Positions 22,874 through 24,231 of a stretch of 64,000 nucleotides of DNA are shown piece after piece. Positions within the stretch are counted from its first letter, which is position 1; each line of letters opens with the position of its first letter. This DNA is from Burkholderia contaminans. Lineage in GTDB: Bacteria > Pseudomonadota > Gammaproteobacteria > Burkholderiales > Burkholderiaceae. Position numbers and translations under genes: made by a program. The notes beneath the pieces are model-generated. The model had not been told where the DNA came from. It saw only the letters and a program-made list of their open reading frames with translations, and searched no databases. The stretch lies in assembly GCF_029633825.1 (NCBI RefSeq), contig NZ_CP090641.1, positions 2,790,001 to 2,854,000 on the forward strand, given 5' to 3'.

Positions 22874-22902
22874 TTGTGCGGGCCACCGGCTTTGTGTAGA
22901 CT
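22874..22902 (+). promoter_or_regulatory. possible asd leader promoter
   Basis: TTGTGC at 22874-22879 and TAGACT at 22897-22902 are 17 bases apart, giving a predicted start near 22908-22909, the A of the leader ATG. The hexamers are only partial matches to the sigma-70 consensus (TTG... and TA.A.T). If correct, the leader ORF would be translated from an almost leaderless mRNA. Confidence 0.4.
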
Positions 22903-22908
22903 CGAACG

Positions 22909-23028
22909 ATGGCGCATCTTTCCCTGATCTCCCCGGTCTTGAAACTCCACGGCAACACAGCCCGTGTGGGTGCGCGCGCCATCGTCATCACGAAAACCAT
23001 TACCACGAAAACGATCATTAAACGCTGA
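22909..23028 (+). CDS. candidate leader peptide for asd, rich in Thr/Ile/Lys codons
   Basis: A 39-codon ORF beginning MAHLSLISPVLKLHGNTARV and ending AIVITKTITTKTIIKR before TGA. The last 14 residues before Arg (residues 25-38) hold five Ile, five Thr, three Lys and one Val, encoded by AT-rich codons (ACC ATT ACC ACG AAA ACG ATC ATT AAA) in a genome that otherwise favours Ala, Arg, Gly and Val. Threonine, isoleucine and lysine are the end products of the aspartate pathway, and asd starts 82 bases downstream. The pattern parallels the E. coli thr leader. It is not a usual annotated gene; the role is inferred from position and composition. Confidence 0.6.
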   Translation: MAHLSLISPVLKLHGNTARVGARAIVITKTITTKTIIKR

Positions 23029-23032
23029 TCGT
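23011..23032 (+). promoter_or_regulatory. hairpin overlapping the leader-peptide stop codon
   Basis: ACGATCA / TGATCGT is a perfect 7-bp stem around TTAAACGC. It covers the final Ile-Ile-Lys codons and the TGA of the leader ORF, where a stalled ribosome would melt it. This fits an attenuation or pause hairpin. Confidence 0.5.
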
Positions 23033-23040
23033 CCGTCGTG

Positions 23041-23086
23041 CCCGCCTATTTCCCCGCGCGGTCACATCGGGGACGGAAATGGCGGG
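23041..23086 (+). promoter_or_regulatory. second hairpin between leader ORF and asd
   Basis: CCCGCC-T-ATTTCC pairs with GGAAATGGCGGG (12 bp, one bulged T), with a small inner CCG/CGG helix. It ends 23 bases before the asd ATG. There is no T-run after it, so if it regulates, it may do so by Rho access or by affecting the asd ribosome site, not by intrinsic termination. Confidence 0.5.
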
Positions 23087-23109
23087 GAAGCTCCATCAAA
23101 GGGTTAGTC

Positions 23110-24231
23110 ATGAACGTAGGTCTCGTAGGTTGGCGCGGCATGGTCGGCAGCGTCCTGATGCAGCGCATGCAGGAAGAGGGCGATTTCGACCTGATCGAAC
23201 CGGTGTTTTTCAGCACCAGCAACACGGGCGGCAAAGCGCCGTCGTTCGCGAAAAACGAGACTACGCTCAAGGACGCGACCAACGTCGACGAGCTGAAGAA
23301 GTGCGACGTGATCATCACGTGCCAGGGCGGCGATTACACGAACGACGTGTTCCCGAAGCTGCGCGCGGCCGGCTGGAACGGCTACTGGATCGATGCGGCA
23401 TCGTCGCTGCGGATGAAGGACGACGCGGTCATCATCCTCGATCCGGTCAACCTCGACGTGATCAAGGACGCGCTCGTCAAGGGCACGAAGAACTTCATCG
23501 GCGGCAACTGCACGGTCAGCCTGATGCTGATGGCGCTCGGCGGCCTGTTCCGCGAGAACCTCGTCGACTGGATGACGGCGATGACCTACCAGGCCGCATC
23601 GGGCGCGGGCGCGCAGAACATGCGCGAGCTGCTGTCGCAGATGGGCACGCTGAACGGCGCGGTGAAGGAGCAGCTCGCCGATCCGGCTTCCGCGATCCTC
23701 GACATCGACCGCCGCGTGCTGGCCGCGATGAACAGCGATGCGATGCCGACGAGCAACTTCGGCGTGCCGCTCGCCGGTTCGCTGATCCCGTGGATCGACA
23801 AGGATCTCGGCAACGGGATGTCGAAGGAAGAGTGGAAGGGCGGCGCGGAAACCAACAAGATCCTCGGCAAGCCGGCCATGGGCGAGCCGGGTTCGATCCC
23901 GGTCGACGGCCTGTGCGTGCGGATCGGCGCAATGCGCTGCCACTCGCAGGCGCTGACGATCAAGCTGAACAAGGACGTGCCGCTCGACGAGATCAACGGC
24001 ATCCTCGCATCGGCGAACGACTGGGTGAAGGTCGTACCGAACGAGCGTGAAGCGTCGATGCGCGACCTGTCGCCGGCGAACGTCACGGGCACGCTGACGG
24101 TGCCGGTCGGCCGCCTGCGCAAGCTCGCGATGGGCGGTGAATACCTGTCGGCATTCACGGTCGGCGACCAGCTGCTGTGGGGCGCGGCCGAGCCGCTGCG
24201 CCGCATGTTGCGCATCCTGCTCGACAAGTAA
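23110..24231 (+). CDS. asd: aspartate-semialdehyde dehydrogenase
   Basis: NADP-dependent reduction of aspartyl phosphate to the semialdehyde, the branch point for lysine, methionine, threonine and isoleucine. It has 373 residues, beginning MNVGLVGWRGMVGSVLMQRM, the dinucleotide fold of the Gram-negative type. The active-site Cys is in IGGNCTVSLMLMALGG near residue 136. SGAGAQNMRELL and the late CHSQALTIKLN segment with the catalytic His are present. The true start is 23110, preceded by AAAGGG. It is preceded by the leader ORF and hairpins described separately. Confidence 0.97.
   Translation: MNVGLVGWRGMVGSVLMQRMQEEGDFDLIEPVFFSTSNTGGKAPSFAKNETTLKDATNVDELKKCDVIITCQGGDYTNDVFPKLRAAGWNGYWIDAASSLRMKDDAVIILDPVNLDVIKDALVKGTKNFIGGNCTVSLMLMALGGLFRENLVDWMTAMTYQAASGAGAQNMRELLSQMGTLNGAVKEQLADPASAILDIDRRVLAAMNSDAMPTSNFGVPLAGSLIPWIDKDLGNGMSKEEWKGGAETNKILGKPAMGEPGSIPVDGLCVRIGAMRCHSQALTIKLNKDVPLDEINGILASANDWVKVVPNEREASMRDLSPANVTGTLTVPVGRLRKLAMGGEYLSAFTVGDQLLWGAAEPLRRMLRILLDK

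Follow-up and report, generated by a model that had tools for sequence, protein, structure and literature searches.

The 64,000-nucleotide stretch analysed here (the window; Burkholderia contaminans, contig NZ_CP090641.1, positions 2,790,001 to 2,854,000) carries the genes leuB and asd, and the gap between them holds a short open reading frame (ORF) whose end is a stretch of threonine, isoleucine and lysine codons (T/I/K run). We describe this leader ORF, its relatives in other genomes and the RNA that links it to asd, and consider whether the supply of these amino acids may set asd expression. The window's genome comprises 9.44 Mb and its closest named relatives are Burkholderia. The locus is organized as follows.

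21743..22810, forward strand: leuB, 3-isopropylmalate dehydrogenase (TIGR00169 leuB, 490.8 bits)
22909..23028, forward strand: leader peptide ORF with Thr/Ile/Lys-rich tail (65/65 genus genomes; 102 distinct leaders)
23110..24231, forward strand: asd, aspartate-semialdehyde dehydrogenase, including stop codon (TIGR01745 asd_gamma, 649.6 bits, cut-off 402.9)

The leader ORF extends from ATG to TGA over 39 codons and encodes MAHLSLISPVLKLHGNTARVGARAIVITKTITTKTIIKR. A first-pass annotation, made from the DNA letters, had pointed out that Ile, Thr or Lys account for 13 of the 14 residues that precede the final Arg, which is borne out. The coding pattern K-T-I-T-x-K-T-I occurs once in the 9.44-Mb genome, at the leader, and the reversed control gives 0 occurrences. 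Because of this single occurrence, and because an ORF ending in T/I/K lies upstream of asd in 65/65 genomes of the genus, the leader ORF is, as a sequence feature, real and beyond chance.

In the following, f1 denotes the window's own family, f49 a second Burkholderiales family close to Variovorax, and f14 a third family. The 65 genus genomes were searched at the DNA level for the asd upstream region, which was found in all of them. The set of named loci comprises 80, of which L071 was dropped for its unusable upstream region. A T/I/K-ending ORF is present in 46 of the 79 readable loci, namely in all 40 of L031-L070 and in L075, L083, L086, L090, L094 and L096; L069 is counted among them despite an ATG out of frame with the run. 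Positive loci belong to Burkholderia, Paraburkholderia, Caballeronia, Trinickia and Cupriavidus, together with one uncultured Burkholderiales bacterium (L090) that groups with f49. The run is missing from 33 of the 79 loci, including those of Pandoraea, Limnobacter, Massilia, Noviherbaspirillum, Zoogloea and Burkholderia sp. L27(2015).

The 102 distinct f1 leaders (37-55 amino acids long) have a combined Thr, Ile and Lys content of 84% in their last 12 residues, versus 26% in the remainder. N-termini are similar within Burkholderia and unrelated between genera. For example, genus g24, which we infer to be Ralstonia-like, has an unrelated N-terminus (MISIALPVLVLGILGTLAIAAKGT...) and a tail reading TTTKIITKKTIS, and the tail in genus g8 is RTRKTIKT (L206 and L228 were dropped from this reading of further f1 genera). 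Frame and T/I/K run are kept across relatives while the N-terminus drifts or is replaced, which is the kind of conservation the first-pass annotation had proposed to look for. A short leader ORF with conserved codons for pathway products is the control-codon feature of ribosome-mediated attenuators, and it is found here.

Codon choice in the tails differs from that of the flanking genes. Lys is encoded by AAA 253 times vs 13 times by AAG in f1 tails (3:37 in window leuB plus asd), and Ile by ATT 168 times vs 158 times by ATC (1:38 in the same two genes). In the leader tails, AAA thus prevails over AAG and ATT is on a par with ATC, although both are rare in the neighbouring genes. In L069 (Candidatus Burkholderia pumila) and L196, the T/I/K frame is open and the promoter-proximal ATG is out of frame; judging by this arrangement, the leader looks decayed in the symbiont L069. 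In the 1.2-Mb genomes of genus g8 (L207, L208, L209), the leader is shortened or lost. For one leader, 56 relatives were found in protein databases at E up to 1, and the named ones are annotated as hypothetical or uncharacterized, except one PucR-family regulator.

Upstream regions of asd were read across Burkholderiales, most families being represented by few loci (7 of 50 loci were dropped in one batch). In f14, the run precedes asd in 3/3 loci, all from one genus (SIKRTTTIITKTVMKG, TTIITKKTKTIILV, STTIITKKTKTTVLV). In f49, 88 of 101 loci have the run, defined as 5 or more T/I/K among 9 residues close to the ORF end, and 13 do not; this set excludes L270 (same genome as L357) and counts one genome twice (L299 = L367). 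Outside the three families, 0/92 loci (61 + 31, including a few repeats or paralogues) have a T/I/K run ending an ORF before asd, an absence that is provisional since 102 listed places in the order lay outside individual reading or were covered only via a family sample.

The f49 runs come in two forms. In 41 loci the run ends a free leader, such as MFAARPFALNTASAALAGVATRAITTKTTTIKG, and in 47 it is the end of LeuB itself, as in ...MGDAVVAAITKTITKG. T/I/K account for 68% of the last 12 residues in free and 60% in fused loci. Two f49 LeuB ORFs score as leuB equivalogs (NCBIfam), and the f49 LeuB query L353 shares up to 95% identity with a Variovorax entry. The six deposited LeuB entries that were read (Variovorax, Acidovorax cavernicola and a Ramlibacter metagenome-assembled genome) all end in GDAVVAAITKKTITG, with ITKKTITG as the tail. 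In an Asd tree of 34 rows plus outgroup, which represents one gene and leaves several forks open, branches with good support require each of the two labels, free and fused, to change at least 4 times. In four f49 loci (L302, L374, L379, L426), the gap between the T/I/K stop and asd is longer and contains extra sequence.

These comparisons bear on what the ORF is for. It might encode a small protein with its own function, or conservation might be purely that of an RNA or DNA element; strong conservation of parts of the DNA and the similar N-terminus within Burkholderia fit this explanation. However, N-termini are unrelated between genera and in 47/101 f49 loci LeuB, not a free peptide, carries the run, and we regard this explanation as hardly credible. 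Nascent-peptide arrest sequences are known from SecM and TnaC, and the tail, located at the ORF end beside the stop codon, could act in this manner and sense something besides charged tRNA. The tails are alike in composition, not in sequence (KTITPKTITKR, TTTKIITKKTIS, ITTKTTTIKG, RTRKTIKT), so codon sensing fits better than peptide arrest, which we consider very improbable. Judged by its sequence record, the leader peptide itself is well supported.

Upstream of the leader ORF lie two promoter-like hexamers.

22874..22879, forward strand: -35-like hexamer TTGTGC, 17 nt ahead of the -10 hexamer (from sequence; GTTGT is kept in aligned Burkholderia rows, not in other genera; L136 omitted here, and both L136 and L090 from the next comparison)
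22897..22902, forward strand: -10 hexamer TAGACT (transcription predicted to begin at or near 22909, giving a leaderless leader)

Scan of the window region for consensus promoters found 0, the combination TTGTGC-17 nt-TAGACT being too weak for consensus. A TANNNT hexamer is situated 5-9 nt before the leader ATG in 98/98 distinct f1 upstream regions (7.2 expected from shuffles) and in 34/40 f49 free leaders (2.1 expected). The f1 set leaves out L069, L090 and L136 and takes further loci only where the start rule gave ATG; the f49 set comprises 40 of the 41 free-leader loci. With usual spacing between -10 box and start, the RNA 5' end would fall on or beside the leader ATG, so that free leaders are predicted to be translated leaderless. 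The candidate promoter of the first-pass annotation, which placed the RNA start at the leader ATG, agrees with this conserved -10 box, the start itself being a prediction. Passages of PMC4603805 and PMC7563307 report leaderless mRNAs in B. cenocepacia and C. metallidurans, and S. meliloti trpL is presented as a leaderless leader in part of PMC7298713.

The sequence from the leader end to asd is highly conserved in f1. Three helices recur there: 1:2 over the stop codon, 2:3, and 3:4 (formed by strands b and b'), of which 2:3 and 3:4 cross.

23011..23017, forward strand: strand 1, ACGATCA, inside the last leader codons
23026..23032, forward strand: 3' arm of stop-codon hairpin 1:2, TGATCGT (in f49, an analogous stop hairpin fits cognate partners better, p = 2.7e-3 pooled)
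23033..23045, forward strand: strand 2, CCGTCGTGCCCGC, pairing with 23058-23070 (2:3 pairing and two-sided change)
23050..23057, forward strand: strand b of helix 3:4, TTCCCCGC, with strand 3 starting at the next base (nearly invariant)
23058..23070, forward strand: strand 3, GCGGTCACATCGG, partner in 2:3
23082..23089, forward strand: strand b' of helix 3:4, GCGGGGAA, ending 20 nt before the asd ATG (nearly invariant)
23098..23104, forward strand: probable Shine-Dalgarno (SD) region of asd, AAAGGGT (from sequence; relatives mostly have AAGGGT, AAAGGT or GAGGT there)

A 7-bp hairpin over the leader stop had been noted before and is present as ACGATCA (23011-23017) and TGATCGT (23026-23032). A 12-bp hairpin (CCCGCC..ATTTCC / GGAAAT.GGCGGG) had been singled out as well; it does end 23 nt before the asd ATG (23110), but it is only one of several pairings. 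As a key helix it was rejected: in 63 sequences it is 96.8% paired, its score is not above shuffles and its outer five pairs have no two-sided change, unlike helix 2:3, which crosses it. Helix 3:4 ends about 20-28 nt before the asd AUG. Its arms in L208 (1.2-Mb genome, genus g8) read AUUCUAAG and CUUAGAAU, with both sides rewritten, and in L207 and L209 of the same genus it was not seen by eye. Strand b abuts strand 3 in f1 (23057/23058 in the window), and also in the fused f49 loci L377, L418, L360, L358 and L423, where the helix has 8-13 bp and the next bases are GGCGA. The R1 covariance model, built on the 3' part of the element, matches 272/398 f1 genomes in 9/25 genera; across the order, under stricter filters, it matches 6/399 genomes, all six within f1.

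Pairing was evaluated in alignments of 38 (A1) and 63 (A2) sequences, by cognate-arm tests, for which 41 f1 sequences were used, and by folding of 34 f1 sequences. In the 63 sequences, 95.7% of structure cells pair, and with partners slid by 1-3 columns 37-56% do. Helix 2:3 pairs in 95.1% of cells and is changed from C-G to U-A on both sides in 13/63 sequences (Cupriavidus-type rows); 0/500 shuffles reach its cell count or covariation score. This two-sided change may represent a single event.

When f49 loci are pooled, cognate arms fit better than swapped ones in 60/88 for 2:3 (p = 2.7e-5), in 60/88 for the stop hairpin (p = 2.7e-3) and in 55/88 for the pairing of the asd SD with an anti-SD strand located in the 2:3 loop (p = 2.0e-3), and two control pairings are not significant. 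If the classes are taken separately, 2:3 is the sole pairing that holds in both (p = 0.013 fused, p = 0.0038 free). In fused loci, p is 0.047 for the stop hairpin and 0.035 for anti-SD:SD. A perfect-helix test of 3:4 in f49 yields p = 0.026 in fused and 0.004 in free loci. RNAalifold applied to f49 recovers only part of 2:3. The anti-SD pairing UGCCC:GGGUA was not adopted for Burkholderia, where it is weak (end pairs in 34/38 and 20/38); it is absent from several genera and was retained only for f49.

Taken together, these data are best read, with a probability that we place marginally above even, as ribosome-mediated attenuation of asd by Thr/Ile/Lys supply, where stalled leader translation would refold the RNA and raise asd translation. 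When the three amino acids are plentiful, the ribosome would reach the leader stop and depart and 1:2 would close; helix 3:4 would then form ahead of asd and lower its expression, in f49 additionally with anti-SD:SD pairing or a weak terminator. If charged tRNA for Thr, Ile or Lys runs short, the ribosome would halt on the T/I/K codons. Since the run ends beside strand 1, the waiting ribosome would cover this strand, as in classical attenuators, and free strand 2; 2:3 would form, strand b or the anti-SD strand would be trapped in its loop, and asd would be expressed. In many f49 genera, the last leuB codons would take the role of the leader. Polarity of the switch and level of its output are what we infer from this arrangement.

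Several results weigh against this reading. Covariation and cognate-arm statistics ignore relatedness of the sequences, and over the whole structure the pairs with two-sided change are not in excess (3 vs 3.1 in shuffles). In free f49 loci alone, neither the stop hairpin (p = 0.19) nor anti-SD:SD (p = 0.17) is significant in the cognate-arm test, so the pooled f49 signal derives partly from between-class swapping. The same test of 3:4 in f49 is borderline (p = 0.076), and none is significant in f1, whose sequences hardly differ. An extended 1:2 pairing, in which GCACGAC-type Thr codons pair with strand 2, was tried and discarded, cognate arms being no better than swapped ones (p = 0.72 in f49, 0.82 in f1). 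The switch is not recovered by nested folding of the 34 f1 sequences in which ribosome positions were modelled: P(2:3) averages 0.10 in the free and 0.02-0.00 in the stalled state, the average P(3:4) goes up from 0.35 to 0.65-0.69 on the modelled stall, and SD openness is unchanged (0.52-0.54). As regards exclusivity, the crossing helices 2:3 and 3:4 are each supported, and nested folding does not reproduce a choice between them.

Because strand b abuts strand 3, the two helices could coexist as a pseudoknot, and polarity could be reversed, which likewise tells against the switch as drawn. In one alternative, an H-type pseudoknot of 2:3 and 3:4 beside the asd ribosome-binding site is itself the switch, gated by a ribosome at the leader tail or stop. 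The direct succession of strands b and 3 in f1 and several fused f49 loci agrees with such a structure, as does the failure of 3:4 to fall in the modelled stall; adjacency by itself is no proof of stacking, however, and we rate this alternative as improbable.

The level at which attenuation by stalled leader translation would act was approached through terminator-like sites, defined as a stem of 5 or more pairs with a minimum of 5 T in the 8 positions behind it. A terminator consensus scan found 0 in the window region. The stem-plus-U-run combination occurs in 0/87 distinct stop-to-asd regions of f1 (3.2 expected) and in 0/3 f14 loci. The first-pass annotation had taken the missing T-run as a sign of a possibly Rho-dependent or translational mechanism; this holds for f1, but many f49 loci do have a U-run. 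Stem plus U-run is found there in 25/41 free (3.7 expected) and 9/47 fused loci (1.0 expected), and if at least 3 G-C pairs are required, in 11/41 free (2.3 expected) and 1/47 fused loci (1.2 expected). The typical f49 stem is a weak AAACAGU...ACUGUUU; three folded examples reach -5, -5.4 and -10.5 kcal/mol, the first two near their shuffles. In free-leader loci such as L303, L300 and L359, a stem of this type with U-rich tail lies between hairpin 2:3 and asd.

The f49 sites count against a purely translational mechanism, since in that family transcription termination may be the output. It is possible, although rather unlikely in our estimate, that the same leader and the same sensing generally lead to premature transcription termination, through Rho in f1 (on C-rich RNA after a completed leader) and through a weak intrinsic terminator in f49. 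Strands 2 and b are indeed C-rich, and the f49 sites exceed expectation. Against this stand the lack of any stem plus U-run in the 87 f1 regions and in the window scan, the short distance of just 81 nt from leader stop to asd in the window, and the folding energies of three f49 hairpins, two of which are close to those of their shuffles. Returning to stall-dependent attenuation, its output in the window's family is probably at translation initiation, because no U-run is found in f1, 3:4 lies about 20-28 nt before the asd AUG and the anti-SD strand fits the SD in f49.

In its widest form, a proposal that we hold to be evenly poised, one asd attenuator in three Burkholderiales families would meter Thr, Ile and Lys together; near Variovorax, the sensor would have moved repeatedly between a free leaderless peptide and a C-terminal tail of LeuB, whose last codons would set expression of the next gene via pseudoknot-capable RNA. 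If true, Burkholderiales would be able to sense most of the aspartate family at its branch-point enzyme, and Lys would enter the measure together with Thr and Ile; Asd makes the common precursor of all three, and a shortage would raise its level. The LeuB-tail form would then clearly exemplify a functional enzyme to which regulatory codons have been added. Swaps between free and fused forms, along with a terminator-like site in f49 vs none in f1, make the origin and output change of such leaders testable.

One more element is located within the leader ORF.

22948..22966, forward strand: hairpin CACGGC...GCCCGTG (motif CNCGGC..GCCCGNG)

The motif is present in 73/108 distinct leaders, with the variable pair being A:T in 64, G:C in 9 and mixed in 0, and the other 35 leaders are without it. 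This putative hairpin may explain the conserved HGxTAR residues. The asd frame is open upstream as far as a GTG at 23038 (23038-24231), and the ATG at 23110 is the start conserved among aligned relatives. Downstream of asd, a converging ORF on the minus strand (24334-25644) resembles a flagellar hook protein by eye.

The closest counterpart in layout of codons is the enterobacterial thr operon leader (thrL; Rfam Thr_leader, RF00506), whose leader peptide carries regulatory Thr and Ile codon runs upstream of a Thr-pathway gene. The asd leader likewise has runs of codons for pathway products (Thr, Ile). In contrast to the thr leader, it precedes asd, its run includes Lys, a leaderless start is predicted, f1 has no U-run (0/87) and f49 has the LeuB-tail form. 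The intrinsic terminator with U-run that stands before the structural gene in thr leaders was found neither in the window nor in f1 (0/87). In other bacteria, the asd RNA motif and the lysine riboswitch are cis elements known to lie ahead of asd or lysine genes; unlike them, the asd leader element holds a conserved reading frame. An Rfam search of window positions 21500-24500 and six relatives, at E up to 1, gave no match to RF00506, the lysine riboswitch or the asd RNA motif. The sole matches, a trypanosome snoRNA (E = 0.15-0.35) and one other (E = 0.22), are far under their cut-offs and do not overlap the element. The parallel with the E. coli thr leader drawn in the first-pass annotation is upheld for the codon logic, but not by any Rfam match.

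The same annotation knew of no asd leader peptide described in Burkholderia, and among the matches listed from open-access literature, subscription papers and supplements being outside scope, there is indeed none, nor is there a LeuB-tail attenuator. The main texts of PMC4603805, PMC7563307 and PMC3766115 do not name asd in the portions available. PMC4603805, in the part at hand, screened new ORFs only from 50 amino acids, and the accessible sections of PMC4328036 and PMC5476693 have leuB and asd only in E. coli genotypes.

Two further systems invite comparison. The S. meliloti trpL attenuator (rnTrpL/peTrpL) senses Trp, ends in a terminator and yields a trans-acting RNA and peptide, so that the asd leader resembles it in layout only. 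In erm-type translational attenuators, as outlined in part of PMC11264731, stalling of the leader ribosome rearranges RNA hairpins and thereby permits translation of the following gene; an antibiotic is the signal in that case, whereas for the asd leader it would be aminoacyl-tRNA. On the features compared, the asd leader would thus be placed among ribosome-mediated attenuators as a new form, outside Thr_leader.
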